A stretch of DNA of 64,000 bases from an uncultured Bacteroidales bacterium (lineage in GTDB: Bacteria; Bacteroidota; Bacteroidia; Bacteroidales; FEN-979). The stretch lies in contig CAIRDP010000063.1 of assembly GCA_903877385.1 (NCBI GenBank), forward strand, positions 62,001-126,000. Reading direction: 5' to 3'. This document shows positions 318 to 35,166 of this stretch, one piece after another. Made by a program: the position numbers and the translations under genes. Numbering within the stretch: the first letter of the stretch is position 1; each line of letters begins with the position of its first letter. The notes beneath the pieces are model-generated. The model was not told where the DNA came from. It ran no database searches and was given only the letters and a program-made list of their open reading frames with translations.

Positions 318-333
318 TATATTTGTAATTTTG
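318..333 (+). promoter_or_regulatory. Promoter -7 boxes for the sensory hydrogenase gene
   Basis: Two adjacent matches to TAnnTTTG occur: TATATTTG (318-325) and TAATTTTG (326-333). Use of the first would start transcription near 331-333, giving a leader of about 8 nt before the ATG at 340. This argues against the upstream TTG at 331 as the start codon. Confidence 0.5.
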
Positions 334-339
334 ACCATT

Positions 340-2208: not shown

Positions 2209-2217
2209 GCTCCTGCA

Positions 2218-4485: not shown

Positions 4486-4523
4486 AATTTTCTGGTTTCT
4501 GGGCTCTGGTTTCTGGGTATACT

Positions 4524-4551
4524 AGTGCCTAGTACCCAGTACCTTGTACCT
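4524..4551. repeat. Degenerate GTACC tandem repeat in hydA-hydC spacer
   Basis: The spacer holds repeated units such as AGTACCCAGTACC and TTGTACC, directly after the hydA stop codon. Just beyond it, TTCTGG(T/G) units also repeat (4491-4518). The units resemble those at 16651-16683 and 37881-37900. Confidence 0.6.
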
Positions 4552-4556
4552 GATTA

Positions 4557-6329: not shown

Positions 6330-6341
6330 GTCAGTCCCTCC

Positions 6342-9123: not shown

Positions 9124-9125
9124 TG

Positions 9126-9133
9126 CAAAGGTA
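9126..9133 (-). promoter_or_regulatory. -7 box of the ATPase-hydBAC operon promoter
   Basis: Minus-strand TACCTTTG matches TAnnTTTG exactly. It lies 3 bp upstream of the GTG start, so the mRNA is expected to be leaderless or nearly so. The double operator 9148-9182 is directly upstream. Confidence 0.6.
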
Positions 9134-9147
9134 GTATTTTTTTCATT

Positions 9148-9182
9148 TTGTTATTTAATTCACTATGTGAAAAATTTCACAA
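9148..9182. promoter_or_regulatory. Tandem Crp/Fnr-type operator of the hyd operon
   Basis: Two 18-bp sites share one base. The distal one, ATGTGAAAAATTTCACAA (9165-9182), is a perfect TGTGA-N6-TCACA palindrome, identical to the classical CRP consensus. The proximal one, TTGTTATTTAATTCACTA (9148-9165), is a weaker copy. Site starts are 17 bp apart. The pair fills the gap between the PHP gene stop and the ATPase gene start. Confidence 0.7.
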
Positions 9183-9183
9183 A

Positions 9184-19667: not shown

Positions 19668-21482
19668 CTAGTATCTCTTTCGTGGAGTGTAGTGTGTATG
19701 TAGAAGTTCATGGGATTTATGGCCCAGCGGATGTCCAAGGAATTCTTTGTAGATCAGCTGAACTTCGGGGTTCTCATGAGATTTGCGGATGGACATTCCC
19801 ATATCTTCCTCATAAATGGCTTCTTTCCTTTTTGTGCGGATTTCCTTGTTCGTGGGAATAGGCTGTCCTCCACCTCCAAGGCATCCTCCGGGGCAGGCCA
19901 TGATCTCGATAAAATGATAATTGGCTTTCCCGTCTTTCACATCCTGCATGACTTTCTTGGCGTGTGCAAGACCATTGGCCACAACACATTTCAGTTCAAC
20001 GCCTTCAAGGAAACTCCATTCAGGTTTGACTTTTTCAATTTTAAGGGATGCTTCACGCACTTCGCCTTCGGTACCGCGCACCGGGGTGATGTTGAGCCCT
20101 TCGAACGGGATCTCCCGGCCTGTGACAACTTCGTATACTGTGCGGATGGCAGCCTCCATAACGCCTCCTGTAGTTCCGAAGATTACAGCAGCTCCTGTTG
20201 ATGAGCCCATCAGGCTGTCGAAATGTTCTTCAGGCAATTCTTCAAAATCGAGTCCTGCCTGTTTGATCATAATTCCAAGTTCCCTGGTGGTTAAAACAAA
20301 ATCTACATCTTTATAACCGCTGGAGCGCATTTCGGGGCGATTGGCTTCGAATTTCTTGGCAGTACAGGGCATTATGGAAACCGAGACAACATTTTTGGCA
20401 TCCAGTTTGCGCTTCTGGCAATAATAAGTCTTTACCAATGCACCGAACATCTGCTGGGGAGATTTGCAGGTTGAGAGATTCCCCAGGAGTTCCGGGAATG
20501 TATGCTCGATAAATTTGATCCAGCCCGGGGAACAGGAAGTCGCCATAGGCAGAGAAACATTCGGATCCTTGTCAAGCAGGGCTTTTTTAAGCCTGGTAAG
20601 TAATTCGTTGCCTTCCTCGATAATGGTGAGGTCGGCTGTGAAATCCGTATCAAGTACTGAATCGAAGCCCAGGCGTTTCAATGCAGTAACCATTTTCCCG
20701 GTAACAATTTTACCCGGGGGCATTCCAAGGGCTTCTCCCAATGCAATACGCACTGCAGGAGCTGTTTGGACAACAACATGCTTGGTGGGATCATAAATGG
20801 CATCCCATACCTGGTCTATGTAGTTCCTTTCGATGAGGGCGCCTGTCGGACAACGGTTCACACACTGTCCGCAATTGGTGCAAACAACCTCGAATAAGGG
20901 GTGTTCGTAAAATGTCGAGATCTTCATATGGTTCCCTCGGTAAGCAACGCCGAGAGCACTTACGCCCTGGAGTTCCTCGCATGTCCTTACGCAGCGCTGG
21001 CAGCGAATGCAACGGCTGTCATCCTTAATGATCGCCGTATTGAACATGTCGATGGAATATTTGTGATCCGGCACCAGGTCCAGGAACATATGGTCACCGG
21101 TAAGCATCTGGGAAGCAAGTCCCTGCAGCTCACAAATACCGTTCTTGTAACACTTGGTACAATCAGCGTTATGCTCCGATAACAGCAATTCCACAATATG
21201 CTTGCGTGCAAGCCTTACCTTCATGCTGTTGGTATGAATAACCATGCCTTCGGCAGCCGGTGTGGCACAGGAAGCAGGAAGTGATTTCACCTTTTCCTGC
21301 TCCACAATGCATACCCGGCAATTGCCTGCAACACAGAGGTCTTCATGAAAACAAAGTGTGGGGATATGTATATTGAGCTGACGGGCAGCATTGAGAATGG
21401 TTGTACCTTCATCAACACTTACCTGGATCCCGTCGATGGTAAGATTGATCTGTTTTATAGTTTCTATCTTAGTGTTTTTCAT
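19668..21482 (-). CDS. hydA: [FeFe] hydrogenase catalytic subunit, second copy (HydA2)
   Basis: A 604-residue HydA. N-terminal plant-type [2Fe-2S] (C44, C55, C58, C72), His-Cys cluster (H104, C108, C111, C117), two ferredoxin [4Fe-4S] motifs (CIRCQRCVRTC; CTNCGQCVNRCP), and the H-cluster domain with TSCSPGW, MPCTAKKFE and EIMACPGGCLGGGGQP. The first loop has Ser where HydA1 has a second Cys. It is closer in sequence to the HydA part of the fusion at 23671-26985 than to HydA1. It is the last gene of hydC2-hydB2-hydA2 and ends at the bidirectional terminator. NADH-linked H2 production or uptake is expected. Confidence 0.95.
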   Translation of the reverse strand: MKNTKIETIKQINLTIDGIQVSVDEGTTILNAARQLNIHIPTLCFHEDLCVAGNCRVCIVEQEKVKSLPASCATPAAEGMVIHTNSMKVRLARKHIVELLLSEHNADCTKCYKNGICELQGLASQMLTGDHMFLDLVPDHKYSIDMFNTAIIKDDSRCIRCQRCVRTCEELQGVSALGVAYRGNHMKISTFYEHPLFEVVCTNCGQCVNRCPTGALIERNYIDQVWDAIYDPTKHVVVQTAPAVRIALGEALGMPPGKIVTGKMVTALKRLGFDSVLDTDFTADLTIIEEGNELLTRLKKALLDKDPNVSLPMATSCSPGWIKFIEHTFPELLGNLSTCKSPQQMFGALVKTYYCQKRKLDAKNVVSVSIMPCTAKKFEANRPEMRSSGYKDVDFVLTTRELGIMIKQAGLDFEELPEEHFDSLMGSSTGAAVIFGTTGGVMEAAIRTVYEVVTGREIPFEGLNITPVRGTEGEVREASLKIEKVKPEWSFLEGVELKCVVANGLAHAKKVMQDVKDGKANYHFIEIMACPGGCLGGGGQPIPTNKEIRTKRKEAIYEEDMGMSIRKSHENPEVQLIYKEFLGHPLGHKSHELLHTHYTPRKRY

Positions 21483-21495: not shown

Positions 21496-22668
21496 TTAGT
21501 AAATCATTTCTTCTTTGAAGTTATAAACGATAGATGAGAATGAATTGGCAACCGACTGGCCGAGGCCGCATTTTGCAGTCAGCTTCATGCTTTCCGAGAG
21601 TTTCATCAGCTGGTCGAGATAAAGAAATTTCTTGTCGCCTTTTTTCACGGCTACAATGCCTTTACGAAGTTGCTGGCATCCGACACGGCAGGGAGTACAC
21701 TGTCCGCAGGATTCTTCTTCAAAGAATTCGAGATAATTGTGCAATACATTGAACATGGACCTGGAACTGTTGAAAAGCATCATGGAGCCTCCGGTGGGAA
21801 CCCCCTCGAAACCGATCACAGTGTCTTTGAATTTTTTACGGGGGACGCAGAAACCTGAAGCACCTCCCACCTGGACGGCTTTGGTGTCGCCGTCTCCGAA
21901 CTCGTCTACGAAACGGTCAAGGGGCATACCCAGTTCCAGTTCGTAAATTCCCGGTATGGGAGTGTCGCCCGACACCGAGAATACCTTTGACCCACGGGAG
22001 TCGGTAGTCCCAAGTAACTTAAACTGTATGGGACCGAGGCGCATGATCATCATGACATTCACAAAAGTTTCCACGTTATTAATAACGGTAGGTTTCCCGA
22101 GGTAACCGTAGGTCGTCGGATAAGGAGGTTTGTTCCTGGGCTCACCGCGGTTCCCTTCCATGGATTCAAACAATGCACTTTCTTCACCGCAAATGTAAGC
22201 TCCGCTGCCAAGCCTTATCTCGATCGAAAAATCAAGACCTATAGCTTTTGCACTTTCGTGATATCCCTCAAGCTCTTTATTGAGTTCAGGGAGGAGGAAT
22301 TTGTATTCACCCCTAAGGTAAATATAGCCTCTTTTAGCACCTATCACTTTGCCGCATATGGCCATCCCCGAGAACACCTTTCTTGGTACACGGCTCAGGA
22401 TCTCACGGTCTTTAAATGTGCCGGGTTCGCCTTCGTCGGCATTACATACAACAAATTTTTCTTCACCCGGGGCCTGGGCCGTGAATTTCCACTTCATTGC
22501 AGTTGGAAACCCCGCACCACCGCGTCCGCGAAGACCCGATTCAAGCAGATCTTCAAGGATTTCATCATTCGAGCGCTTTATGGTATCGGTAAGTACCTTA
22601 TACTTGACATTGGAGTATTCACCAAAGATTAGGTCAACTCGTTTTAGTTTGGTATCAGACATCGTCAA
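21496..22668 (-). CDS. hydB: Short NuoF-like subunit (HydB2)
   Basis: A 390-residue NuoF core: glycine-rich FMN segment GRGGAGFPT, NADEGEPGTF, SLBB region and [4Fe-4S] motif ESCGQCTPCRVG. Unlike HydB1 at 6342-8135 it lacks both the N-terminal thioredoxin-like [2Fe-2S] domain and the C-terminal two-cluster ferredoxin domain, so it is about 200 residues shorter. The reading frame is intact and ends in ordinary sequence, so this is a natural short form and not a truncation. Missing clusters may mean simple NADH-dependent rather than bifurcating chemistry. It sits 13 bp upstream of hydA2. Confidence 0.9.
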   Translation of the reverse strand: MTMSDTKLKRVDLIFGEYSNVKYKVLTDTIKRSNDEILEDLLESGLRGRGGAGFPTAMKWKFTAQAPGEEKFVVCNADEGEPGTFKDREILSRVPRKVFSGMAICGKVIGAKRGYIYLRGEYKFLLPELNKELEGYHESAKAIGLDFSIEIRLGSGAYICGEESALFESMEGNRGEPRNKPPYPTTYGYLGKPTVINNVETFVNVMMIMRLGPIQFKLLGTTDSRGSKVFSVSGDTPIPGIYELELGMPLDRFVDEFGDGDTKAVQVGGASGFCVPRKKFKDTVIGFEGVPTGGSMMLFNSSRSMFNVLHNYLEFFEEESCGQCTPCRVGCQQLRKGIVAVKKGDKKFLYLDQLMKLSESMKLTAKCGLGQSVANSFSSIVYNFKEEMIY

Positions 22669-22683: not shown

Positions 22684-23151
22684 TTATTTATGTATGTACT
22701 CACTTAAAATATCATGAACCTTCTCGGGTGTGAGTCCTGAATAAGGTTTCTCATTGATCAGCATCGCCGGGCCTTCATGACACCAGCCCAGGCAATTGGT
22801 TTCAAGTAAGGTGAATTTGTTATTCGGAGTTGTTTCCCCGACTTTGATCTTCAGCATATCTTCAATCGTTTGCACGATCGACCGCTTGCCATGCATATCG
22901 CAGGTTATGGTCTTGCAAACACGGATCACGAATTGACCGCGAGGCTTTGTTTCGAGAAATGCATAGAAGGTGGCGGTCCCGTAAACCTGGGCAGCTGAAA
23001 GATCGAGTTCCTTTGCAATTTCAGTCATGTCCTGGTCTGAAATGAAATTCTTTCGTTCAACCACTCCCTGCAATATTGGCATCAGGCTGGTGCGGTTTCT
23101 ACCGTACTGATCCACTAGTTCAGTGATGTAATTGTTGTTGTTTGTAGCCAT
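22684..23151 (-). CDS. hydC: NuoE-like [2Fe-2S] subunit (HydC2)
   Basis: A 155-residue NuoE-type protein with N-terminal helices and a thioredoxin-like [2Fe-2S] domain (VCKTITC and ETNCLGWC). First gene of the second hydrogenase operon, 15 bp before hydB2. A leftward -7 box at 23210-23217 and a perfect palindromic operator at 23228-23245 precede it; the operator is shared with the divergent fusion-gene operon. Confidence 0.9.
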   Translation of the reverse strand: MATNNNNYITELVDQYGRNRTSLMPILQGVVERKNFISDQDMTEIAKELDLSAAQVYGTATFYAFLETKPRGQFVIRVCKTITCDMHGKRSIVQTIEDMLKIKVGETTPNNKFTLLETNCLGWCHEGPAMLINEKPYSGLTPEKVHDILSEYIHK

Positions 23152-23284: not shown

Positions 23285-23674
23285 ATGAACACAGCTAACC
23301 GTCGCTTGTTATTGCAATGGATACTCTGGCTCATCGCCATTCATTCCATTTGCTTTGGCTTCATCCTGATCGTATTTCCCCCGTTATGGATAGAGTATTT
23401 CGGGTTTCAGCTCCGGGAAAAATTTTTCGCCGACCAGGGCGGAGTGTTTCACCTTATAATCAGCCTTGCATACATAATGGCCGCCCTTTCCCCCGAGACC
23501 TCGAAAAAGCTGATTATATTATCGTGTGTGACAAAATTCACCGCGTCTGTTTTTCTTTTTTCATATTTCCTTTTTGACCGGCCCATCATCATGGTTCTCC
23601 TGTCGGGAGTGGCTGATCTTATGATGGGGCTGGCTATTTTGGCTTCATACAGATTTTATATCAAATCAACATGA
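23285..23674 (+). CDS. Small four-helix membrane protein
   Basis: A 129-residue protein with four predicted membrane helices (about 10-32, 52-68, 74-96, 103-124). I recognise no family with certainty; layout resembles small DoxX/DUF-type membrane proteins. The stop codon overlaps the start of the following fusion gene by 4 bp (ATGA), so the two are translationally coupled. Partnership with a soluble hydrogenase fusion is unexpected. Confidence 0.7.
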   Translation: MNTANRRLLLQWILWLIAIHSICFGFILIVFPPLWIEYFGFQLREKFFADQGGVFHLIISLAYIMAALSPETSKKLIILSCVTKFTASVFLFSYFLFDRPIIMVLLSGVADLMMGLAILASYRFYIKST

Positions 23675-26600
23675 ATACCAGTCTGCCTTCACTCGTTATT
23701 ACGGGTGCTTCCGGTTTTATCGGGCGGTATTTCCTCGAATTTGTCAGGGAACAGTTTACGGTCTTTGCCATTGCCCGAAGGTCGGCAAGGGAAGCCAATA
23801 TAGCAGAACATCCCAATATTCACTGGATACAGTGGGATATTGCCAATTCATCCCAGATCAGGGAGGTGTACAAGGAGATTCACCTTAACGGAGGCGCCGA
23901 TTTTATTCTTCATCTTGCCGCTTTTTATGACTTCACCTATTCCGACGATATTGCTTACCAGCGGACGAATGTCGAGGGTATGAAAAACGTGCTGGACCTG
24001 GCAAGGCAGCTCAATGTAAAACGGTTTATCTTCGCCAGTTCCCTTGCAGCCTGCAATTTTCCGGTCCCGGGACAATTCATCAATGAGAAAACCTCCCCGG
24101 ATGCGGATTTCGCTTATGCCAAAACCAAGAAAACAGGGGAGGAACTGTTAAGGAATAATTCCAAAGACATCCCTGCCATTATAATCAGGTTTGCCGCTGT
24201 TTTCAGTGATTTTTGCGAATACCCACCCCTGTATAAATTCCTTGGAACCTGGCTTTCCAAGGGGTATGACTCAAGGATGCTTGGAGGAAAAGGGGAGTCA
24301 GCTGTTCCGTATATCCATATACATGACCTGGCAAGGCTTATTGCACTTGTTCTGCAAAAGAGCCATCTCCTTCCCCAGTTCGACATTTATGCCGCAAGCC
24401 CCGGGGGCAGTACTTCCCATAAGGAATTATTCCAGATCGCGACGAAAGACTTTTTCGGTAAGGCAGTAAAACCTTTTTTTATTACAAAATACCTCGCTTA
24501 CCCGGGGGTTGCAGCCCGGATCGCCATGGGCAGGCTTAAGCTCACTCCTGAACCTTTTGAACGCTTCTGGATGCTTAAGTATCTTGACCTCAAACTTGAT
24601 ACCGATGCTTCCTACACAACCCAGGCTCTTGGATGGGAGCCGCTTGCACGCCTGCACATCAACCGCAGGCTGATGTTCCTGCTGGCTAAAATGAAAAGCA
24701 ATCCCATGGAGTGGCAGATTAAAAATGAAGCTGCCCTAAGACATATCTCGGTACGAACTAACCTGCTTATTTATGAAGTCCTCATAAGGGATAAGGAAAG
24801 ACTGGTCAATAAAATGGTCCAGAGAGTGAACTCCGAAAGCAATACCGTCGACCTGTCACATTATCAGCATATGGACATACAGGAACTGAACCTGGTGCTT
24901 CTGACTCTTTTCAATGTACTGGCCTCTACCATCCTCAATGGCGACCGCAGCCTTATTATCAATTATACGGATGATATTGCCCTGCCCCGCTTTGAAGAGG
25001 GTTTCACCGGTGCAGAGATCAGCACCCTGCTTGGGATGATCGCCGAAATCATCGACAATCACCTGCTACAGTCCAAAGATTATCATTTCAGCAAACAGGA
25101 CCTGTACGACCATATAAGTGTGCCTTTGCAGCTTGCCCAGGATGAGATTGCCGAGAAATATGACCTTCATTTGGGCCTCTCCAAAGAAGTGACGCATAAG
25201 AAGAAGATCAAAGTCACTTTTGACGGGCAGGAGGTATTCGTCGAAGAAGGCTTATCAATCCTGGATACGGCCAGGTCGTTGAAAATCCACATACCATCAC
25301 TTTGCTATCATAAGGATTTGAGAATCGCCGGAAATTGCAGGATATGCCTGGTTGAACTGGAAAATTCCAAACACCTGGTTGCATCCTGTGCTACCCCGCT
25401 TGAAGAAGGAATGGTCATTTCGACAAACAGCCTGCATGTAAGAACTGCCCGTAAAGCCATGCTTGAGCTGCTTCTTTCGGAGCATTTTACCGATTGCACG
25501 AATTGTTATAAAAGCGGGAAGTGTGAACTCCAGTCCCTGGCATCGGAATTCAAGATCATCAATCCCACCTTCATACCGCTCCATAAGGAAGAACGAATCA
25601 CCCTTGATATTCTTTCACCCGCTATCGTCAAGGATGACCGTAAGTGTGTGCGTTGCCAGCGCTGTGTGCGTACCTGCGCCGAAATCCAGGGTGTGAGCGC
25701 GGTCTGGGTGGCCCATAAAGGAAGCAGTATGAAGATATCGACCTATATGGGGAAATCACTCTACGAGGTTTTCTGCACTAATTGCGGACAATGTATTGAC
25801 CGTTGCCCGACCGGAGCCCTGGTTGAAAAGAATTACATTGAAGAAGTCTGGCATGCCATCTGGGATAAGGAGAAGCATGTTATTGTACAGACAGCCCCGG
25901 CTGTAAGGGTGGCGATAGGGGAGGACCTGGGCATAGAACCGGGGAAACGAGTGACCGGTAAACTGGTAACCGCACTTCGAAAGCTGGGAGTTGATACTGT
26001 TCTTGATACTGCATTCTCGGCCGACATTACCACTATAGAAGAAAGTGCCGAGCTGCTCGAAAGGATCAGAAGGAAACTTGCCTACCATGATGAAAGCGCA
26101 AAGCTTCCCATGATCACTTCCTGCTCGCCTGCCTGGATCAAATACTGTGAACATTCCTTCCCCGAAATTCTTCCTCACCTGTCCACCTGCAAATCACCCC
26201 AGCAAATGTTCGGGGTACTGGCAAAAACCTATTATGCGAAAAAACGCCGGCTGAAACCCGAAAATATTGTCACGGTATCAATCATGCCCTGCACAGCAAA
26301 AAAGTTTGAGGCTGACAGGCCCGAGATGAGAAGCAGCGGGTTTAAAGATGTGGATTACGTTCTTACCACCCGTGAACTGGCGATAATGATCATTCAGGCA
26401 GGTATTGATTTCAAGTCACTCCCTAACGATCATTATGATGACCTGATGGGCAAATCTTCAGGGGCCGGCGTTATTTACGGTGCAACCGGAGGTGTGATGG
26501 AATCTGCCCTGCGTACGATGTACGAAAAGATCACGGGCAGGGACATCCCCTTTGAAAACCTTATCATTAAACAGGTCCGTGGAATGGATGGGGTTAAGGA

Positions 26601-26985
26601 ACTGATCCTCCCTGTTAAGGATTGCCTTGAACCATGGGCTTTTATGAACGGATTGGATCTGAAGGTGGCTGTAGCACATGGCCTGGCCCATGCAAAAACC
26701 CTTATGCAGGCCGTGAGGGGCGGTGATTCCCCCTATCATTTTATTGAAATTATGGCTTGCCCCGGGGGATGCCTTGGAGGCGGGGGGCAGCCCATACCCA
26801 CTAATCCCGACATCCGCCTTAAAAGAGTACAGGCATTGTATGCCGAAGAGATGGGACTTTATTTACGCAAGGCGAACGAAAATCCGGAAGCCATTGAAGC
26901 CTATGAGGAATTCTTGCTGGATCCTATGGGACCTGTGGCTAAAGACCTGCTTCATACCCATTATACCCCAAGGAATACATACTGA
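23671..26985 (+). CDS. Fusion: NAD-dependent epimerase/dehydratase + linker domain + full-length HydA
   Basis: A single uninterrupted frame of 1104 residues. Residues 1-335 are an extended short-chain dehydrogenase with TGASGFIG (11-18), Ser at 123/124, and catalytic Y149-x3-K153. Residues about 345-505 are an unassigned, mostly helical region. Residues about 511-1104 are a complete HydA with [2Fe-2S], His-Cys (HFTDCTNCYKSGKC), two ferredoxin motifs, and H-cluster loops TSCSPAW, MPCTAKKFE, EIMACPGGCLGGGGQP. Every cluster ligand seen in HydA2 is kept. No own hydB/hydC follows; the divergent hydCBA2 operon could supply partners. The gene may couple a nucleotide-sugar or other NAD(P)-dependent reaction to hydrogen, but the epimerase substrate is unknown. 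Confidence 0.9.
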   Translation: MNTSLPSLVITGASGFIGRYFLEFVREQFTVFAIARRSAREANIAEHPNIHWIQWDIANSSQIREVYKEIHLNGGADFILHLAAFYDFTYSDDIAYQRTNVEGMKNVLDLARQLNVKRFIFASSLAACNFPVPGQFINEKTSPDADFAYAKTKKTGEELLRNNSKDIPAIIIRFAAVFSDFCEYPPLYKFLGTWLSKGYDSRMLGGKGESAVPYIHIHDLARLIALVLQKSHLLPQFDIYAASPGGSTSHKELFQIATKDFFGKAVKPFFITKYLAYPGVAARIAMGRLKLTPEPFERFWMLKYLDLKLDTDASYTTQALGWEPLARLHINRRLMFLLAKMKSNPMEWQIKNEAALRHISVRTNLLIYEVLIRDKERLVNKMVQRVNSESNTVDLSHYQHMDIQELNLVLLTLFNVLASTILNGDRSLIINYTDDIALPRFEEGFTGAEISTLLGMIAEIIDNHLLQSKDYHFSKQDLYDHISVPLQLAQDEIAEKYDLHLGLSKEVTHKKKIKVTFDGQEVFVEEGLSILDTARSLKIHIPSLCYHKDLRIAGNCRICLVELENSKHLVASCATPLEEGMVISTNSLHVRTARKAMLELLLSEHFTDCTNCYKSGKCELQSLASEFKIINPTFIPLHKEERITLDILSPAIVKDDRKCVRCQRCVRTCAEIQGVSAVWVAHKGSSMKISTYMGKSLYEVFCTNCGQCIDRCPTGALVEKNYIEEVWHAIWDKEKHVIVQTAPAVRVAIGEDLGIEPGKRVTGKLVTALRKLGVDTVLDTAFSADITTIEESAELLERIRRKLAYHDESAKLPMITSCSPAWIKYCEHSFPEILPHLSTCKSPQQMFGVLAKTYYAKKRRLKPENIVTVSIMPCTAKKFEADRPEMRSSGFKDVDYVLTTRELAIMIIQAGIDFKSLPNDHYDDLMGKSSGAGVIYGATGGVMESALRTMYEKITGRDIPFENLIIKQVRGMDGVKELILPVKDCLEPWAFMNGLDLKVAVAHGLAHAKTLMQAVRGGDSPYHFIEIMACPGGCLGGGGQPIPTNPDIRLKRVQALYAEEMGLYLRKANENPEAIEAYEEFLLDPMGPVAKDLLHTHYTPRNTY

Positions 26986-27069: not shown

Positions 27070-27567
27070 TCAATTGTGGCTATGAGTATTCTGGTACATC
27101 AGTGCTTCCAGCAGGAATTTATACACTTTTGAAAGGATGCCGGGATACTGCTTCTGAAGCGCCGGGCTGAGTGTTTCACTGAATTCAAGATCTTCGGATA
27201 TCTCTACCGCGATAATCAGGATTTCTGAAGGAAGTTCGTAATTCAGCTTCTTCCCCAGCTCAAGAGCTGTTATGAAGCTGATGTCGTGCAGATTTGATAT
27301 ATGCATGCTGGCTCTGAAATCATCGGGCGAGAGGAAGTAAACATTACCTGGCCTTCCTCCTGCAGTCTTTATTGCATCTATCATGAAAATGCGGGTATAT
27401 CCTGATATGTCCTCCAGTAATTCCAGCCCTCCCACCGCAACTGTCTTAAAGCTGACCTCAGCCGGCAGGCCCATTTTAACGAGATCTCCGATAAGTTTGG
27501 GACCGATGCCATCGTCGGTGAGAATGTCATTCCCTATGCCCATCACAAGAATTTTTTCCTTTTCCAT
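27070..27567 (-). CDS. [NiFe] hydrogenase maturation endopeptidase
   Basis: A 165-residue protein of the HycI/HoxW family, with the N-terminal GIGNDILTDDGIG motif whose Asp/Glu-type ligands sense nickel, a central D in FMIDAIK, and His in NLHDIS. It cleaves the C-terminal extension of the large subunit after nickel insertion. The partner large subunit, encoded 9 bp upstream, has a 25-residue tail after its last metal-site motif, as expected for a substrate. It is the last gene of the operon. It converges on the fusion gene with an 84-bp gap that has no clear terminator. Confidence 0.9.
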   Translation of the reverse strand: MEKEKILVMGIGNDILTDDGIGPKLIGDLVKMGLPAEVSFKTVAVGGLELLEDISGYTRIFMIDAIKTAGGRPGNVYFLSPDDFRASMHISNLHDISFITALELGKKLNYELPSEILIIAVEISEDLEFSETLSPALQKQYPGILSKVYKFLLEALMYQNTHSHN

Positions 27568-27576
27568 TTTGTAAAT

Positions 27577-29037
27577 TTATCTGCTTATTGAATCAATTAT
27601 CTGACCTTCGCTGTCCCTGATGTTGAGAACCATTTTCATTTCGCCCGGGAGTGAATGGGTGGCGCATGAGAAGCAGGGATCATAAGCCCTGAACGCCATT
27701 TCGATCATGTTCAGCGTGCCTTCGGTGATTTCACTGCCTTTTTTAATCAGGCCCCGGGCAGCTTTTTTGATCGACATGCAGATAGCCGCATGATTGTTAG
27801 TGGTCCCAACGATGAGGTTGACTTTTCTGACCATTCCATTATCGTCGGTCCAGTAATGATGTGTCAAGGTTCCTCTCTGGGCTTCGACAATGCCAACCCC
27901 TTCTCCAACGATTTTCCCCAGGGGGGCCCTTAGCTCATTACCTGTGATCTCAGGATCCATGGCCAGTTCAAGACAATGTTCCGATGCATACATAAGTTCA
28001 ATGAGCCTGGCCCAGTGCATGGCCAACGTGGCATGGACCGGTTTACCGCCAAGTGTACTGTACATATATTCATACTCCTGCTGAGCGAGAGGCGTAGCCA
28101 TTCCGTCGGCTGCATTAAGTCTCGACAGGGGTGTTGCCTGGTAAACCCCTGATTCCTGGCCGTCGATGAACCCTTTCCAGCCGATTTTTTTGAGATACGG
28201 GAATTTCAGGTAAGTCCAGGGTTCAACCCTCTCTTCTACAAAATCCAGGTACTGTTCGGCTGGGTATTTGTACAGCTCTTCACCCCTGGTATCGACAACT
28301 CTTACCTTCCCGTCGTAGAAACTGACTTTATTCTTTTCATCGACCAGGCCCATGGAATGCAGGACCAATGAATACGGGCCCTTCAGAATCAGTTCAACAT
28401 ATTCCTTATTGCCCAGAACAACATCCTTGAACAGTTGGATGGAGAATTTTGAAAAATCAATGAATCCTTCGGCCTTTTTAACAATGTCATCCCTTTGTAC
28501 GGGGCTGATGCCTTTTTTTACACCCCCCGGAATGTTCATTACTACATGGGTCTGGTGACCTCCTATCATCGCCTGTATTTCCTGGGCCATCTTTCGTTGC
28601 CTGATGACTTCGCTCCCGATTTTAATTCCTGCTTTGCTGATCACGCCCAGGATATTCCGTTCGGCCGGGCTGGCAGTAGGCCCAACAACGAAATCAGGTG
28701 CTGCAAGAGCGTAGAAATGGGCAATATGGCTGTGGACGAAATGCGCCATATAGAACAGTTCCCTGAGTTTCCTGGCGGTCGGAGGAGGTTCAACTCCAAA
28801 TACACGGTCCACGGCCTTACCTGAGGCCATATGATGGCAGCCCGGGCATACTCCGCAGATCTTGGTGACTATGGATGGCAGTTCTTCGACGGGCCTGCCT
28901 TCGCAGAACTTCTCAAAACCACGCAATTCGGGAACCTGGAAGTAGGCATTTTCAACCTCTCCATCATTGTTCAGAAAGATTTCGATCTTCCCGTGGCCTT
29001 CAAGCCTGGTAATAGGATCAATGCTGATGTGCTTCAT
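27577..29037 (-). CDS. mvhA: [NiFe] hydrogenase large subunit, MvhA-like (group 3)
   Basis: A 486-residue catalytic subunit. Ni-Fe site cysteines are C61 and C64 (KICGVC) and C455 and C458 (DPCFSCATH), followed by a 25-residue propeptide. The residue before the first motif is Lys instead of the common Arg, and an extra Cys follows in CPGC. No signal sequence, so cytoplasmic. Start overlaps the small-subunit stop (ATGA). Gene order with small subunit, MvhD and HdrA points to an Mvh-type, group 3c-like enzyme that oxidises H2 for a flavin-based complex. Confidence 0.9.
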   Translation of the reverse strand: MKHISIDPITRLEGHGKIEIFLNNDGEVENAYFQVPELRGFEKFCEGRPVEELPSIVTKICGVCPGCHHMASGKAVDRVFGVEPPPTARKLRELFYMAHFVHSHIAHFYALAAPDFVVGPTASPAERNILGVISKAGIKIGSEVIRQRKMAQEIQAMIGGHQTHVVMNIPGGVKKGISPVQRDDIVKKAEGFIDFSKFSIQLFKDVVLGNKEYVELILKGPYSLVLHSMGLVDEKNKVSFYDGKVRVVDTRGEELYKYPAEQYLDFVEERVEPWTYLKFPYLKKIGWKGFIDGQESGVYQATPLSRLNAADGMATPLAQQEYEYMYSTLGGKPVHATLAMHWARLIELMYASEHCLELAMDPEITGNELRAPLGKIVGEGVGIVEAQRGTLTHHYWTDDNGMVRKVNLIVGTTNNHAAICMSIKKAARGLIKKGSEITEGTLNMIEMAFRAYDPCFSCATHSLPGEMKMVLNIRDSEGQIIDSISR

Positions 29038-30014
29038 AATACCTTTCTCCCTAAGATTGAGCCTGGCAGGCTGAAACGGTAGAACAATCCGGCCGGGTCG
29101 ACAATTGCTTCAATGATTTCATCGATTTCATCAGGATCATTGGAATCTATCATGGTTCCGATAGCTGCCATCATTTTTGCTCCCGGATCACTGGATCCCT
29201 GTGGCGGGCCATAACACCCGCGGCAAGGCGAATTTCCTTCGACACAACGCACTCCGCAACCACCCCTGGTTGCAGGCCCCATACAGATGACTCCCTGCTC
29301 AATGAAACACGTCTCCTTATCATCCTGGATTTCCCAGGGCCTGTAAAATCGTTTGACTTTCTTTTTGTCTGACTTTTTACGCTTACATTCATCACAGTTG
29401 GTCTTATCATTAGCTCCCACTACTGATCCGGCCGGCGGAAGATTGGTCCCGGCTGAAATGACCGAGAAGACTTCGATAAGCCTTTCACTCTGAGGCGGGC
29501 AGCCGGGTATATAATAATCCACCTCAACGACCTGGTTCAGCGGAAACACATCGTTAAACATCAGGGGGATCTCCAGGGTTCCCTCCTTTACCTGGACAGA
29601 CGTGATTGGAACGGTTTTTTCGGGATTGACCGTGGATTCAGTCTCCTCGTAAGCCCTTTTGAAGATTTCGTTTTTCGAAAAGAAATTAGCAAGACCGGGA
29701 ATGCCTCCCATATAGGCGCAGGACCCGTAAGCCACGAGGATTTTCGATTTTTGCCTCAATACCTGTGCCATATGCTTGTTTTCGCTGTTGCGGACTGCCC
29801 CGTTAAAAAGTGTCAGGTCGATGGATTTATCAGGCATGCTCTCAACATCCTTGTACTTGATGTCCATCGCGATCGGCCAGAAGACGAGATCAGCTGCTGC
29901 AACTATATCCAGCAGTTTTTCATGCGTATCCAAAACCGAGACACAGCATCCTCCGCAGGCAGCACCCCAATAAACTGCAAGTTTGAGTTTGGGTTTGGTT
30001 AGTTCCTGAGACAT
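29034..30014 (-). CDS. mvhG: [NiFe] hydrogenase small subunit, MvhG-like
   Basis: A 326-residue Fe-S subunit. The N-terminus has the proximal-cluster motif WGAACGGCC without a twin-arginine signal, as in cytoplasmic group 3 enzymes. PGCPPQ and cysteines in CMGPATRGGCGVRC and CRGCYGPP supply the remaining clusters. A lysine-rich insert with CDECKRKK lies near residue 205; this adds two cysteines that I cannot assign. It relays electrons from MvhA to MvhD. It lies 2 bp after mvhD. Confidence 0.9.
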   Translation of the reverse strand: MSQELTKPKLKLAVYWGAACGGCCVSVLDTHEKLLDIVAAADLVFWPIAMDIKYKDVESMPDKSIDLTLFNGAVRNSENKHMAQVLRQKSKILVAYGSCAYMGGIPGLANFFSKNEIFKRAYEETESTVNPEKTVPITSVQVKEGTLEIPLMFNDVFPLNQVVEVDYYIPGCPPQSERLIEVFSVISAGTNLPPAGSVVGANDKTNCDECKRKKSDKKKVKRFYRPWEIQDDKETCFIEQGVICMGPATRGGCGVRCVEGNSPCRGCYGPPQGSSDPGAKMMAAIGTMIDSNDPDEIDEIIEAIVDPAGLFYRFSLPGSILGRKVL

Positions 30015-30016
30015 GG

Positions 30017-30454
30017 TTAATTTGTTTTTAAATGTTCAAGTTCAAGGGTTTTCTGTACTTTCCCCGGCCCGAGCTTAAGGATGGCGGCGGTCATCTCATT
30101 GACCAGCTCGGCAAACTGTTTTCCTTCACTGGCGCTGATCCATTCCAGTTTCAGCCTCTCTTTTTCTATGCCCATCTGGCATACGAACTTCTCAAGGAGT
30201 TTGAACCTCCTGAGGCATTTATAATTCCCTTCCTGGTAATGGCAATCCCCCGGATGACATCCACATACAAGAACACCATCGGCACCCTCCTTAAAGGCTT
30301 TGAGGATGAAAGTGGGTTCTATCCGTCCCGAGCACATGATCCTGATGATGCGCACATTGGGTGCATAATGCAGCCTGGAAGTGCCTGCAAGGTCGGCGCC
30401 GGTATAAGCGCACCAGTTGCATAGGAAAGCTACGATGGTGGGTCTGAAATTCAT
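30017..30454 (-). CDS. mvhD: MvhD-like [2Fe-2S] electron-transfer protein
   Basis: A 145-residue protein with the MvhD/FlpD signature: [10 protein letters not shown] near the N-terminus, a Cys in IMCSGR, and [11 protein letters not shown]. MvhD carries one [2Fe-2S] cluster and links the hydrogenase to HdrA. In several Qmo and Hdr systems this domain is fused to HdrA; here it is a separate gene between hdrA and mvhG, supporting a direct hydrogenase-HdrA contact. Confidence 0.9.
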
Positions 30455-30465
30455 ATTTTTTTAAA

Positions 30466-32190
30466 TTAATATGACATTGACATAATCCCTTCTATCTCTG
30501 AGAGTATCTGGCGGTCGGTGAAATGTTTGCTTGTGATGGCTCCGGCCGGGCAGCATCCTCCGCATGTTCCGCAACCCTTGCAGAGGACCTCATTGACCAC
30601 TGATACTTTTTTGGCTTCATCAAAGGAAACTGCAGAATAGGGGCAAACGCTGATGCAGGTCTGGCATCCGCAGCAGAACGACTCGTTCACCACGGCTGTA
30701 GTAACCTCAACGGGAACTGAGCCCTGGGCGATCGTTGCAAGTATCCTGGCCGCAGCTGCTTTGGCCTGGGCAACTGAATCAGGGATATCCTTGGGCCCCT
30801 GGCAGGTTCCCACGATAAACACACCTCCGGTAGTGGTGGCAACAGGATCCAGCTTGGGATGCTTTTCAATGAAGAACTGGTTCCCGCATAAACTCACGCC
30901 AATGGTACGCACCACCTCTTTCACGTTGTCGTGGGCTTCCATATTGACCATGAGTATCACCATATCCACTGGCACTTCAATATCGATACCCGAAAGAAGT
31001 TCATTCATTTCTATCAGCATATTGCAGTCGTCGTCGCGGTATGCCTCCCTGATCAAGGGTAGGCTTTTCTGCTGGTCATACATCAGGAAGATGATCTGTT
31101 TGTGGGTGGTCATGGCATAGAATTCCTCATGCCCTTTCCCGTATGCCCTCATGTCGGCATAGATCTCGAAAATATTGGCATCGGGCAGGGCGGCGCGAAT
31201 CTCGTGCACGAATTTGAGGGCAACCATGCAGCAAACCCTTGAGCAATATTCATGGTATTGTTTGTTACGGCTGCCGACACAATGAATGATTGCAACGTTC
31301 CTTGGCTCCTTTCCGTATTTCGTTAGGATCCTGCCGGCCCTCAGTTTGTCTTCGAACTCCAGGGAAGTGATCACGTCGGGAAATTTGCCGTAACCATATT
31401 CCGCTATCACAGAGGGATCGAAAGGTTTCAATCCGACGGCTGCTATGATATTGCCAAACGTTATTTCGGGTTGTTCAGCTCCATTGAATACAAGCCTGGC
31501 TTTGAAATTACCGATGTACCCGCTTACCTCTTTTAATTCAGTGTTCAGGTATACGATTATCATGGGATGGTTTTCAACCCTCTGTATCATCGGCCTTATC
31601 ATCTGCCGGGCACTTGAGAGGTGGGGGAAAGTGAGATCGAACCTGGCTACCTGGCCTCCAAGGTGGTCGGTTCTTTCAAGCAGGTACACTTTCTTGCCTG
31701 CATTCGCGATCTCAAGAGCAGCAGTCATCCCCGAAATGCCCCCGCCGATTATGAGTGTGGCCGGGTCTACATTCACCGATCTCTTTTGCAAGGGCTCATG
31801 GTAACGCACCCTCCTGATTGCGCCAATAACCAGGTCTATGGCTTTTTTCGTTGCTTCCGTGCGGTCGGTATGTACCCATGAATCCTGCTCCCTGATATTC
31901 GCCATCTCGAACAGGTACGGATTGATACCGGCCTTCTCGCAGGCATTCCTGAAAGTGAGCTCATGTATGCGAGGGGAACAGGCGGCTACAATAACCCTGT
32001 TGAGGTTATGTGATTTGATGTCTTTGATAATCAGGTCCTGGCCCGGATCGGAACACATGTATTTGTAATTTTTCGAAAGCACTACTCCCGGCAGGGTGCC
32101 GACTTCCTTAGTCACAGCTTCAACATCGACCATTTTCGAGATGTTGGTGCCGCACCAGCAAACGTAAACCCCTATTCTTGGCTCTTCCAT
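30466..32190 (-). CDS. HdrA-like flavoprotein with C-terminal ferredoxin domain (HdrA/QmoB-like)
   Basis: A 574-residue protein. The N-terminus has the HdrA Cys motif VYVCWCGTNI and YMCSDPGQ, then an FAD domain (GGGISGMTAALE, residues about 148-160), the conserved HCVGSRNKQYHEYCSRVCC segment, and a C-terminal pair of [4Fe-4S] ferredoxin motifs (CCGCQTCISVCP; CKGCGTCGGCCP). It lacks the mid-protein ferredoxin insert present in its paralogue at 33361-35166. HdrA is the bifurcating flavin subunit of Hdr-Mvh complexes. Here it lies next to MvhD, so it is the likely entry point for electrons from H2. Confidence 0.9.
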   Translation of the reverse strand: MEEPRIGVYVCWCGTNISKMVDVEAVTKEVGTLPGVVLSKNYKYMCSDPGQDLIIKDIKSHNLNRVIVAACSPRIHELTFRNACEKAGINPYLFEMANIREQDSWVHTDRTEATKKAIDLVIGAIRRVRYHEPLQKRSVNVDPATLIIGGGISGMTAALEIANAGKKVYLLERTDHLGGQVARFDLTFPHLSSARQMIRPMIQRVENHPMIIVYLNTELKEVSGYIGNFKARLVFNGAEQPEITFGNIIAAVGLKPFDPSVIAEYGYGKFPDVITSLEFEDKLRAGRILTKYGKEPRNVAIIHCVGSRNKQYHEYCSRVCCMVALKFVHEIRAALPDANIFEIYADMRAYGKGHEEFYAMTTHKQIIFLMYDQQKSLPLIREAYRDDDCNMLIEMNELLSGIDIEVPVDMVILMVNMEAHDNVKEVVRTIGVSLCGNQFFIEKHPKLDPVATTTGGVFIVGTCQGPKDIPDSVAQAKAAAARILATIAQGSVPVEVTTAVVNESFCCGCQTCISVCPYSAVSFDEAKKVSVVNEVLCKGCGTCGGCCPAGAITSKHFTDRQILSEIEGIMSMSY

Positions 32191-32217
32191 ACGCTTTGTT
32201 TTTCAGGGATGACAGGA

Positions 32218-33348
32218 TTACCTTGGAACTGCATATTTTTTTAATTGCTGAAAATACACGGCAAAAGGCCGGTAGGCGAGATGTGACCATTTCGAGAACG
32301 GAACCTCTATCAGAATCATAGGAACAAGAACAGCCATATGGGCAATGTAGGATATATAGGTGCCCAAAGGCATGCCATTGATCCTGAATATGTGGATGAG
32401 TATGCCCGTGATGGCCGTCAGTGTAAGCATCGCAAGAAACAGCCAGTCGCTGATGTGGGAAAACAGGAACTTGATCTCTTTCTTCTGTAGTCGGCCGAAT
32501 ATGGCTACGAACAGTCCGAACAACAGCCCGAAAGTTGCATAATAACCCAACAGCCTCTGGGGGTTCCATATCGGGAGTATCCTTTCGGTCTGAAACCAGG
32601 GCAGGTAAACAACGATCACAATGAACATGATGGTGTAACCCGACATCAGGAACCAGTGTGAGAGCCAGTAGCGTTTGTCGTCGCATTTGTTGAATTTGGG
32701 CTGTACTGCGAAGTTGAAGATCAGCAGCCAGAATTCCCTGATATGCACCCAAAGGCTGACCTTCATATTACCGTATTTCCAGATGATCTTGTAATACATC
32801 CTCAGGATGTTTGAAATAAGCAGGGAGGCTACAACTAAAGCCATGGCCCAGTCGAATGTTTCAACAACATGGATTGGGGCGAAGGCATTGACCTGCACCC
32901 CTCCTTCGGCTGTGAGTTCCCTGGTGAAATGAAATCCCATGGATGGAAGGACAAGCAGGAAGGAAATCACAACCAGGGCGGCAAACGAAAGGATAAAGAA
33001 CAGTTCCCATAGTTCGGAAGTGTAAAATTTCTTCGACAGGCCGGTCCAGTCGTAGATGGATGTCAGGTACCTCCTGAGCGACATCATCAGCTCCCCGGGG
33101 TTCGCATCCCGGGGGCAGGAAGTGGAACAGTCGCCGCAGTAATAGCAAAGCCATGGCTCGACGCTGGCTTCTAGCTCATCTTTCAGGCCCATCTGCATCA
33201 GCCGGATCTTTTTCCTGGGGAACAGGAAGCCTTCTTCTGAAAGAGGGCATTGGGCTGTACAAGTACCGCAATGATAGCAGGCATTCCAGTCGCCGATGCC
33301 GAACTGCATCAGCTGGTTCCTGAGCTCAGGGTGAACACGTGTACTCAT
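32218..33348 (-). CDS. QmoC-like membrane subunit (HdrC ferredoxin + membrane domain)
   Basis: A 376-residue protein. Residues about 20-95 hold two [4Fe-4S] motifs of HdrC type (CYHCGTCTAQCP; CYYCGDCSTSCP). The remainder is an integral-membrane domain with about six helices (near 115-137, 160-185, 230-250, 268-288, 305-325, 335-358) and several histidines suitable for haem b ligation, as in HdrE/NarI-type cytochromes. This HdrC-HdrE fusion is the layout of QmoC, which links to menaquinone in sulfate reducers. No HdrB (CCG-domain) gene is present, so heterodisulfide reduction is unlikely. The operon seems to send H2-derived electrons to or from the quinone pool. Confidence 0.85.
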   Translation of the reverse strand: MSTRVHPELRNQLMQFGIGDWNACYHCGTCTAQCPLSEEGFLFPRKKIRLMQMGLKDELEASVEPWLCYYCGDCSTSCPRDANPGELMMSLRRYLTSIYDWTGLSKKFYTSELWELFFILSFAALVVISFLLVLPSMGFHFTRELTAEGGVQVNAFAPIHVVETFDWAMALVVASLLISNILRMYYKIIWKYGNMKVSLWVHIREFWLLIFNFAVQPKFNKCDDKRYWLSHWFLMSGYTIMFIVIVVYLPWFQTERILPIWNPQRLLGYYATFGLLFGLFVAIFGRLQKKEIKFLFSHISDWLFLAMLTLTAITGILIHIFRINGMPLGTYISYIAHMAVLVPMILIEVPFSKWSHLAYRPFAVYFQQLKKYAVPR

Positions 33349-33360
33349 GGTCGGCTTGTT

Positions 33361-35166
33361 TTATATAGGTACTGTTGATAATTCCATTATTTTATATTCC
33401 ACACGATCAAGTGAAACCGACGAAACATCATCGCGCAGCCTGCCTTTCAGTATGCTTTGTATCACCCTGGCAGCTGCGGCAGATCCCTGGGCAACGCAGT
33501 CTGGAATGTCTTTCGGCCCTTGGCAGGTTCCCGCCAGGTAAATGCCGCCACGGCAGGTGCCTGTAGGATCAAGGTTATAATGTGCCTCGTCGAACCATCC
33601 GTCGGCATTGGTAGTGATGTTCAGCATCTTTGCCAGTTTAAGGGCGTCTTCTCCTGCTTCAAGACCTACCGATAATATAACCATGTCTACGGTATTTTCT
33701 AGTATCTCGCCACGGAGGATGTCTTCTCCCCTTAAAAACAGTTTTTCCCCTCTTTGCTCAACTTTCGCGGTTTTTCCCCTGATGATGGATACTTCTTCCT
33801 GCCTTATCCTTTCATAGAATTCTTCATACCCCTTTCCAAACGACCTCATGTCGATGAAATATTCGAAGATCTCGGCCTCGGGAAGTTTTTCCATGATCAG
33901 GTGGGCGAACTTCAGGGAGTACATGCAGCATACCCTAGAACAGTATTTGTTGAAATTCTTGTCGCGGCTGCCCACGCAATGAATGATGGCAAGTTTTTCG
34001 GGCCTGGGAGTGGTGGTATTGAAAATCCAGTTCCCTTTTTTATCCTGGCTCCTCATGTGGATATTCCCCCCGGTGGGGCCTGAAGCATTCAAAAGTCGTT
34101 CAAATTCCAGGGAATTCAGCACATTCGGGAACTGGCCGTAACCGAACTGTGCCATCCGCAGTGCATTAAAAGGTTTATACCCCGTGGCTAAAATGATGTT
34201 CCCCACATTGATGGTTACTTCCGAATCCTTTTCATCCAGGTCTATGCATCCCGGCACAGGACAAGCCTTGACACAGGCCTTGCATTTGCCGTTCTTCAGG
34301 TAGATGCAGTTTTCGGAATCCACCAGGTATTTGTTTGGGACTGCCTGTGGGAATGGGATATAGATGGCCTTACGCATGCAGGTGCCGGCATCAAATTCGC
34401 TTGGGGCCTGGGCGGGGCATTTCTCGGCGCAGGTTCCGCATCCTATACAGGTTTGCACATTAACTTTACGCGCCTTTTTCAAAACTTTGACAATGAAATC
34501 TCCCGGCTTGCCTGCCACCTCTTTGATTTCGGAATAACTCATCAGGCGGATATCCGGATGCTGGTTCACTTCCACCATTTTTGGGGTAAGGATACAGGCG
34601 GCACAATCAAGGGTAGGAAAGGTTTTATCGAATGTGGCCATTTTCCCGCCTATGGTGCCGCTTTTCTCCACCAGGTAAACAGGATTATTGCTGTACGCAA
34701 TTTCAAGGGCGGCCTGTATGCCCGAAATCCCCCCGCCTATGACAAGCGTTGCCTTATTCACGGGCAGTTCATCGGGGATACCTGTAAATTCATAAGGGAT
34801 GCCGGATATCATGGAAGCAAGTACCTTTTTAAGACCCTCGGTTTTAAATATGCTTCCCGAACAATAATCATTAAAACTGGCAAGCATAACTTTTTCCGGA
34901 TCTTTTCCGGCCACTGCCATGGCTTTGGAAAACAAGGCTTTCACCGTACCCGGCATGAGCCCGGCAATAATGATACGCTCAAAATTATTCTCCTCGATTT
35001 TTTTCAGGATGTTCTTCTCATTCCATATGAAGTCAGAATAAGTAAAAGCCTCGGTGACGTTTTGAAACGTGAATGAGAATCTCAGTAATTCTGAATAGTC
35101 GATAGGGTCGGGATGCAAACCTGAGTGATTGTAAAAAAACATCCCGGTGATCTCGGTCTTTCTCAT
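33361..35166 (-). CDS. HdrA-like flavoprotein with internal ferredoxin insert (QmoA-like)
   Basis: A 601-residue protein, first gene of the operon. The FAD motif is GGGISGIQAALE (residues about 143-155). An insert after the flavin-binding half carries two cluster motifs (CIGCGTCAEKCP and CKACVKACPVPGC), then HCVGSRDKNFNKYCSRVCC. The N-terminal domain lacks the HdrA cysteine motif and the protein ends without a C-terminal ferredoxin, so its cluster set is complementary to that of the paralogue at 30466-32190. A palindromic operator stands 3 bp upstream of the ATG. Likely partner in a QmoAB-like heterodimer on the membrane subunit. Confidence 0.88.
   Translation of the reverse strand: MRKTEITGMFFYNHSGLHPDPIDYSELLRFSFTFQNVTEAFTYSDFIWNEKNILKKIEENNFERIIIAGLMPGTVKALFSKAMAVAGKDPEKVMLASFNDYCSGSIFKTEGLKKVLASMISGIPYEFTGIPDELPVNKATLVIGGGISGIQAALEIAYSNNPVYLVEKSGTIGGKMATFDKTFPTLDCAACILTPKMVEVNQHPDIRLMSYSEIKEVAGKPGDFIVKVLKKARKVNVQTCIGCGTCAEKCPAQAPSEFDAGTCMRKAIYIPFPQAVPNKYLVDSENCIYLKNGKCKACVKACPVPGCIDLDEKDSEVTINVGNIILATGYKPFNALRMAQFGYGQFPNVLNSLEFERLLNASGPTGGNIHMRSQDKKGNWIFNTTTPRPEKLAIIHCVGSRDKNFNKYCSRVCCMYSLKFAHLIMEKLPEAEIFEYFIDMRSFGKGYEEFYERIRQEEVSIIRGKTAKVEQRGEKLFLRGEDILRGEILENTVDMVILSVGLEAGEDALKLAKMLNITTNADGWFDEAHYNLDPTGTCRGGIYLAGTCQGPKDIPDCVAQGSAAAARVIQSILKGRLRDDVSSVSLDRVEYKIMELSTVPI

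Follow-up and report, generated by a model that had tools for sequence, protein, structure and literature searches.

Group A [FeFe] hydrogenases are reported to have diversified mainly by domain architecture and quaternary structure (PMC5037454); in the same source, group A3 is recognised by a gene for a NuoF-domain protein lying immediately downstream of HydA. In the beta subunit of non-bifurcating enzymes, Thr or Ser, then Lys, Ser or Ala, then Tyr occupy the diagnostic positions, and the GGPSG motif is absent (PMC7311640). The non-heme globin domain of the RsbR protein, in turn, docks to a membrane protein, Prli42 (PMC6614362). For the joining of a short-chain dehydrogenase/reductase (SDR) to the hydrogenase subunit HydA, no description was found in the literature searched, which did not include most subscription papers or any bioRxiv preprints; PMC6349859, an article matched on the terms FeFe hydrogenase, epimerase and fusion, is unrelated to such an architecture in the text available. 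A gene of this kind is described here: it encodes an SDR, a middle domain and HydA, and lies in a stretch of 64,000 nucleotides (indicated as "the window") of contig CAIRDP010000063.1, from an uncultured Bacteroidales bacterium (assembly GCA_903877385.1).

The fused gene and its distribution

SDR and hydrogenase are encoded by a single ATG-to-stop frame of 1104 codons (Table 1), uninterrupted as claimed in an earlier annotation of the window, hereafter the original prediction. The N-terminal part matches the Pfam profile Epimerase (PF01370, residues 9-234) with 101.3 bits, the gathering cut-off being 20.9, and the H-cluster domain matches Fe_hyd_lg_C with 314.9 bits (cut-off 22.1). The hydrogenase models TIGR02512 (492.7 bits, cut-off 405.95) and NCBIfam NF040763, "NADH-dependent [FeFe] hydrogenase, group A6" (796.3 bits, cut-off 765), are also passed. 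It is nearly certain that the fusion is real: the gene codes for a true multidomain enzyme, which became fixed, probably on a single occasion, in one lineage of Bacteroidales.

The same order of SDR, middle domain and HydA, sought in related genomes, recurs in 14 intact loci, each from a different genome (window, L039, L041, L050, L051, L053, L054, L055, L056, L057, L058, L060, L144, L145). Twelve of the 14 proteins are exactly 1104 residues long (for L058, counting from the aligned ATG), while L041 has 1105 residues and L144 1103. Within the window's family the SDR module is present in 15 of 43 genomes, the other 28 being without it at E <= 0.001: 13 of the 15 feature open frames of 1103-1149 codons. 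The copy of G693 runs off the contig start, leaving an open reading frame (ORF) of 993 residues (L146); that of G713 (same record as L052; L052:4095-7407) has its frame broken near residue 548. The fusion is also found in G094, a genome of another family. The copy of L061 (L061:8001-9592) carries large deletions, which remove the middle domain together with portions of HydA.

Of 295 genomes sampled across the whole order, 13 (the window's own among them) carry an SDR-module orthologue with at least 42% identity over nearly the whole length; it is fused in 4 and unfused in 9. HydA matches at 1e-80 occur in 183 of the 295 genomes; among the matches listed, frames of more than 1100 codons are confined to the four fused cases. 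In the phylum sample, 31 of 395 genomes give a match: 10 unfused full modules (one, in G518, with an in-frame stop), one module cut by a contig end (G618), the fusion of the window and, in the remaining 19 genomes, small domains. One unfused copy, L119:8214-9878, is split by a stop. Plasmid copies of the module were not found at 1e-30.

The ratio of nonsynonymous to synonymous substitutions (dN/dS) was computed by the Nei-Gojobori method between the window fusion and L053, L050 and L060, with dS values that are high (1.4-2.7) and ratios that are consequently rough; L051 was left out, being too diverged for dS. In the order given, the ratios are 0.045, 0.034 and 0.050 for the SDR, 0.043, 0.061 and 0.081 for the middle domain, and 0.043, 0.054 and 0.039 for the fused HydA; for HydA2, the unfused HydA encoded nearby, they range from 0.021 to 0.027. 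SDR, middle domain and HydA are alike under purifying selection (dN/dS 0.03-0.08).

Fused copies form one clade in a HydA tree of 46 sequences, having one distant HydA as outgroup (12 rows; support 95/88; 94% of 200 bootstrap trees), and one group in an SDR tree of 32 modules, where the unfused L062 and L124 are long branches (13 rows; 77/82; 79%). A single fusion event is favoured by these topologies. Origin of the fused HydA from a recent tandem duplication of the adjacent HydA2 is unsupported: the fused HydAs lie outside the 18-row group (89/78) in which HydA2 is placed.

The three parts of the protein

By its profiles and ligands, the segment from residue 511 to 1104 is classed as a group A [FeFe] hydrogenase HydA. 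All checked Cys and His ligands of iron-sulphur (Fe-S) clusters are conserved in the 12 fused copies aligned, position 819 excepted: these are C545, C556, C559 and C573 for the [2Fe-2S] cluster, H605, C609, C612 and C618 for the His-ligated cluster, and C659, C662, C665, C669, C702, C705, C708 and C712 for the two [4Fe-4S] clusters. The L1 loop of the window fusion reads TSCSPAW, and departs from the canonical TSCCPxW. When aligned to the hydrogenase CpI, C818 falls at CpI C299, and is kept, while Ser819 falls at CpI C300, which we take to be a cubane ligand of the H-cluster. A full HydA with all clusters had been predicted: the ligands of the accessory clusters and the L2 and L3 cysteines are indeed present, but one canonical cubane position is occupied by Ser. 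The serine is shared by most fused copies, as L1 reads TSCSP in 11 of the 12 aligned (L041 has TSCCP), and by all 33 unfused HydA2-like relatives aligned; in the window, HydA2 has TSCSPGW and a further HydA, HydA1, has TSCCP.

As a sign of a dead enzyme, Ser819 loses weight, because HydA1 of PDB 7q4v has the same TSCSP, and the canonical pair of cysteines is therefore not universal in known HydAs; provided that this structure is the active A. woodii enzyme, Ser819 would be compatible with a working hydrogenase. Loss of the proton relay, as in the C169S/C299S change described in PMC9563086, is ruled out by the alignment to CpI: C299 is the proton residue according to that article and, its equivalent being the first, retained cysteine, the data on the change are not applicable. 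The sole paper found to pair TSCSP with hydrogenase reports the motif in two enzymes of one Melainabacteria genome (PMC3787301).

The SDR part features the Epimerase profile, the TGxxGxxG motif and the Ser-Tyr-x3-Lys arrangement of extended SDRs; the intact TGASGFIG motif and catalytic Tyr149-x3-Lys153 had been correctly predicted. Ser124, Tyr149 and Lys153 are kept in all of the 32 SDR modules aligned, and so are Arg36, Arg37, Cys182, Glu183, Gly15 and Gly18; Gly12 is found in 31. No close characterised subfamily was identified: the best PDB match of the SDR has an E value of 1.3e-9, and the NCBIfam SDR models, in the best 25 of 56 matches, are far under their cut-offs. In SDRs an Arg following the second strand usually indicates NADP(H), and by this general rule the invariant Arg36-Arg37 pair points to NADP(H) as the probable cofactor. 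The invariant Tyr and Lys would favour substrate turnover over a mere reading of NADP(H). Neither a flavin nor an Fe-S domain was recognised by the Pfam scan in residues 1-506.

The middle domain, originally taken for a helical linker, turned out to be a domain of the stand-alone SDR protein: in alignment with unfused relatives, residues from about 322 to 500 belong to the SDR protein and not to HydA. These relatives, ORFs of 507-599 residues, continue through it, with their C-termini some 10-65 residues further on. The family RsbRD_N (PF14361) matches 11 of 20 middle-domain members at E <= 1, with a best value of 3.5e-4, and no other family matches more than one of the 20; the domain of L044 reaches 18.8 bits, the Pfam cut-off being 24.3. 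Small stand-alone proteins having the middle-domain profile were scanned in five of eight fetched loci: all five show RsbRD_N or HisK-N-like matches at E <= 0.1, all of them sub-cut-off, and in L108 another family ranks first. Taken together, the matches suggest, weakly, a sensor-globin-like domain, resembling the non-heme globins of RsbR type. No solved structure matches the domain up to E = 10, and PF14361 gives no match in the own genome at E <= 0.001. One middle-domain member matches HisK-N-like at E 0.028; this was discarded, being no better than chance-like matches in the same table, such as Tim44 (0.0086).

Neighbouring genes and possible roles

The small membrane protein TM129 is encoded directly before the fusion, its stop overlapping the fusion start by four bases (ATGA). 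No Pfam family over cut-off was found for it. A TM129-type gene lies just upstream of the fusion in all 14 intact loci. Of 20 unfused loci, 15 have one close to the module; those of L047 and L048 are downstream, on the other strand. Further upstream, in divergent orientation, are NuoE2, NuoF2 and HydA2, while the HycI, Mvh-like and Hdr-like genes are convergent downstream. The VhuA/MvhA-like, VhuG/MvhG-like and FlpD proteins are taken to be subunits of a group 3c-like [NiFe] hydrogenase. The gene following the fusion is thus HycI, on the other strand, and NuoF2 is divergent upstream, an arrangement different from the HydDB rule for group A3. Predicted promoters (5, against 6.1 in shuffles) and terminators (5, against 4.4) show no excess.

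Table 1. Position of the fused gene, its domains and the other features, in window coordinates unless a locus is indicated.
Feature	Coordinates	Strand	Source
SDR - sensor-globin-like (weak likeness) domain - [FeFe] hydrogenase HydA fusion, 1104 residues	23671..26985	+	ORF, Pfam, NCBIfam
Extended SDR domain, residues 1 to ~320: TGASGFIG, A35-R36-R37, Ser124, Tyr149, Lys153	23671..24630	+	Pfam, alignment
Middle domain, residues 337-500, weakly RsbRD_N-like, below Pfam cut-off	24679..25170	+	
HydA [2Fe-2S] domain (Fer2_4), residues 511-587	25201..25431	+	Pfam
HydA His-ligated [4Fe-4S] domain (NADH-G_4Fe-4S_3), residues 594-629	25450..25557	+	Pfam
HydA 2x[4Fe-4S] domain (Fer4_Nqo3), residues 650-717	25618..25821	+	Pfam
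H-cluster domain (Fe_hyd_lg_C), residues 735-1038: TSCSPAW (S819 codon 26125-26127), MPCTAKKFE, IMACPGGC	25873..26784	+	Pfam, alignment
Fe_hyd_SSU domain, residues 1047-1101	26809..26973	+	Pfam
TM129, 129-residue membrane protein, six overlapping hydrophobic stretches, ~4 segments	23285..23674	+	
NuoE-type subunit NuoE2	22684..23151	-	Pfam, NCBIfam
NuoF-type flavin mononucleotide (FMN) subunit NuoF2, 390 residues, GTFKDR / GAYICGEE / GGASG	21496..22668	-	
HydA2, second unfused HydA, 604 residues, TSCSPGW	19668..21482	-	Pfam, NCBIfam
[NiFe] hydrogenase maturation protease, HycI family	27070..27567	-	Pfam
VhuA/MvhA-like, VhuG/MvhG-like and FlpD (MvhD) subunits	27577..30454	-	NCBIfam below curated cut-offs, Pfam above
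HdrA-like, QmoC-like and second HdrA-like proteins	30466..35166	-	below NCBIfam curated cut-offs
Hydrogenase island, seven Fe_hyd_lg_C	331-26985 and G000:C63:56004-61981 (L148:12005-17982)		
~160-residue protein near unfused module	L042:12720-13208, L043:2282-2758, L045:8221-8697, L046:685-1200, L047:4419-4919, L048:1450-1959		

Seven Fe_hyd_lg_C matches occur in the own genome (G000; 4.3 Mb, 67 contigs), and every one of them falls on the contig of the window, within about 32 kb: HydA1 and a further HydA, with neighbours of HydB and NuoE type, then HydA2, the fusion, a HydA-PAS protein, a 474-residue HydA-like protein and a hydrogenase-histidine kinase. The maturase HydG is found over its cut-off in the genome. 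The Mvh-Hdr-like cluster (27070-35166), with its QmoC-like membrane subunit and two HdrA-like proteins, recurs beside the fusion, and may possibly serve H2-driven quinone or ferredoxin coupling. At the other end of the island, the HydA-PAS gene is followed by one for a SpoIIE-type phosphatase (331-3402), and a HATPase gene lies beside a presumably PHP-like one (8578-9927); these genes form, perhaps, an H2-sensing phospho-relay.

Judging from sequence comparison, the SDR with its globin-like domain predates the fusion, as it occurs alone, mostly near a small membrane protein, in Bacteroidota and beyond. In the same order, hydrogenase-related genes are found by BLAST against window proteins near 7 of the 9 unfused modules (L040, L042, L043, L045, L046, L047, L048); for L045 and L046 the maturation protease is the sole such gene. 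In L117, outside the order, and at the edge of L059, short ORFs similar to a part of HydB1 were not counted. The distribution suggests a stepwise history, from a pair of SDR-globin and membrane protein, through co-localisation with hydrogenases, to fusion. Other genes recur near the unfused module: that for the ~160-residue protein in six loci of the order (the L046 member, when scanned, shows no Pfam family), a group in five loci, one scanned member of which is a sigma-54 activator, and groups in three loci, including a radical SAM protein and an Fe-S ATPase. Those of the recurrent neighbours that were scanned for families gave no reaction for the SDR. A pyridine nucleotide-disulphide oxidoreductase (L122:6915-8345) is encoded, in a single phylum-level genome, directly upstream of membrane protein and SDR module.

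NuoF2 features Thr, Lys, Tyr and GGASG, the non-bifurcating pattern, in all eight loci examined among the nine having the trio NuoE-NuoF-HydA2, while HydB1 (6342-8135) shows Ala, Met, Phe and GGPSG, the bifurcating one; these positions were matched by motif, not by alignment to T. maritima HydB. By its diagnostic residues, the diaphorase nearest to the fusion is of the non-bifurcating NADH type, with the bifurcating-type trimer as a separate set at 4006-8135. NuoF2/NuoE2 are the best candidate for the electron partner of the fused HydA, whose identity to HydA2 is 57-67% by domain.

It is proposed, tentatively, that HydA turns over H2 with NuoF2/NuoE2, while the SDR-globin unit anchors HydA, regulates it or links it with a reaction that depends on NADP(H). 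In a non-bifurcating hydrogenase linked to NAD(H), the fusion would act as an alternative catalytic subunit: the HydA half would interconvert H2 and protons, its Fe-S chain handing electrons to the FMN subunits NuoF2/NuoE2, and the SDR-globin half would keep its ancestral job, binding NADP(H) and either acting on a carbonyl substrate or reading the NADP(H) state. The recurring membrane-protein neighbour, along with the precedent of Prli42 and RsbR, suggests that the globin-like domain may dock to a membrane protein. The fusion would therefore place the hydrogenase at this membrane/NADP(H) enzyme, with coupling or regulation by diffusing pyridine nucleotide or by conformation. Direct electron transfer from the Fe-S clusters to the SDR is not envisaged: the SDR is not easily the electron partner of HydA, because SDRs transfer hydride and this one has neither a flavin nor an Fe-S domain that could be recognised. 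As put forward in the original prediction, H2 chemistry may be linked, through the SDR, with a carbonyl reaction dependent on NAD(P). That the protein is a membrane-tethered [FeFe] hydrogenase controlled in cis, through the sensor-globin domain, by an SDR that reads NADP(H), a built-in redox gauge with a natural Ser at the cubane position, seems unlikely.

Several observations speak against the proposal. Binding of the fused HydA to NuoF2/NuoE2 is argued from synteny and from the identity to HydA2, which is itself the obvious partner of the pair. The trio adjoins the fusion in 9 of the 14 intact loci, not in all: in the genome of L041 it is about 25 kb off, L055, L056 and L145 end at a contig edge, and the short upstream stretch of L058 has other genes. 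The A6 profile has no power to split bifurcating from non-bifurcating enzymes, as HydA1 of the bifurcating-type trimer (901 bits) outscores the fusion (796), and so does HydA2 (861). Compared with HydA2 from the same genomes, the fused HydA has evolved at a higher rate: without L041, its mean identity by domain to the window copy is 70-83%, against 81-93% for HydA2, and in three pairs its dN is about double. This could reflect a changed partner. The globin-like label stays under the Pfam cut-off, and the window fusion's own middle domain has no Pfam match. L041 is a long branch in the HydA tree, and a single origin is only moderately supported in the SDR tree. Finally, in all 11 loci outside the order (L062 and L115-L124, of which L062 and L116 end at contig edges) no hydrogenase-related gene was found by BLAST near the module, so that the function of the SDR itself may be unrelated to H2.

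Other explanations were weighed on the same data. The fusion could be a redox- or H2-responsive signalling protein of stressosome type, with HydA as the sensor, the globin-like domain as the transmitter and the SDR as a second, NADP(H) sensor. The weak RsbRD_N likeness and the membrane partner gene would fit, as would the presence, in the island, of HydA-PAS, SpoIIE phosphatase and HATPase genes and, just left of the window, of the hydrogenase-histidine kinase. Yet no STAS, PAS or kinase domain is recognised in the fusion: the PAS or kinase output domain expected of HydS-type sensors is found in the neighbours, at 331-2208 and in L148. Moreover, HydA retains its Fer2, His-cluster, ferredoxin and SSU domains and passes the NADH-dependent A6 profile, and the SDR triad is invariant: a signalling role is judged unlikely. 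It is improbable, too, that the protein is a tethered reductase, in which HydA would oxidise H2 and NuoF2 thereby regenerate NAD(P)H, to be channelled to carbonyl reduction by the attached SDR. The intact triad and Arg36-Arg37, the adjacent NuoF2 and the purifying selection on both halves agree with it, but the NAD(H)-linked residues of NuoF2 and the NADP(H)-type SDR, if the general rule applies, would make transhydrogenation necessary, and clustering of the neighbours, some of them family-scanned, gave no recurring substrate-pathway gene.

Also originally suggested was that the SDR takes the place of HydB in docking NAD(P)H; in favour of this, SDR and HydA are on the same chain, and the nucleotide motif is intact. 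Such a role is nevertheless very improbable: residues 1-506, where no flavin or Fe-S domain is recognised, offer no obvious converter of single electrons to hydride, the SDR-globin protein exists without HydA, and NuoF2/NuoE2 are adjacent, with HydA2. As to an assembly artefact or chance read-through, all named copies come from metagenome-assembled genomes and two are broken (L052, L061); still, the junction is the same, its frame open and the length near-identical in the 14 intact loci, the copies group together in two trees, and dN/dS is low throughout. The misassembly or frameshift considered in the original prediction is not borne out, and this explanation can practically be dismissed.

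The conserved fusion would tie H2 turnover to an older family of SDR-globin enzymes having a membrane-protein neighbour. In the manner of a Rosetta stone, it predicts a joint function with hydrogenases for the stand-alone SDR-globin proteins of the same order, which are often encoded near hydrogenase genes. The fusion would also provide a natural system for studying Ser at the H-cluster cubane.

Comparison with known systems

HydA1 of PDB 7q4v, which we take to be from Acetobacterium woodii and part of a bifurcating complex, resembles the fusion in having Ser at the canonical cubane-ligand position, within a TSCSPGW loop; it differs in being a chain of 583 residues, without SDR-globin extension. 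The non-bifurcating NADH-dependent [FeFe] hydrogenase (PMC7311640) is similar in the residue pattern of NuoF2 and in the NADH-dependent A6 profile, passed by the fusion HydA as well as by the bifurcating-type HydA1 of the window. In the text available for that system no SDR or globin-like N-terminal extension is described, and here the fused gene and NuoF do not share an operon. With the electron-bifurcating HydABC/BfuABC (PMC9304861), whose main text does not contain the words SDR, fused or fusion, the fusion shares the HydA architecture from the Fer2 domain on. The residues considered as bifurcating are shared with HydABC/BfuABC by the window's HydA1-HydB1-NuoE1 set (4006-8135), whereas NuoF2 has neither these residues nor the ferredoxin extension. 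Finally, the N-terminal non-heme globin of RsbR (PF14361) and its membrane tether Prli42 (PMC6614362) find a parallel in the weak profile likeness of the middle domain and in its small membrane-protein neighbour; unlike RsbR, the middle domain scores below the Pfam cut-off, has no STAS domain and is joined to an SDR and a hydrogenase.

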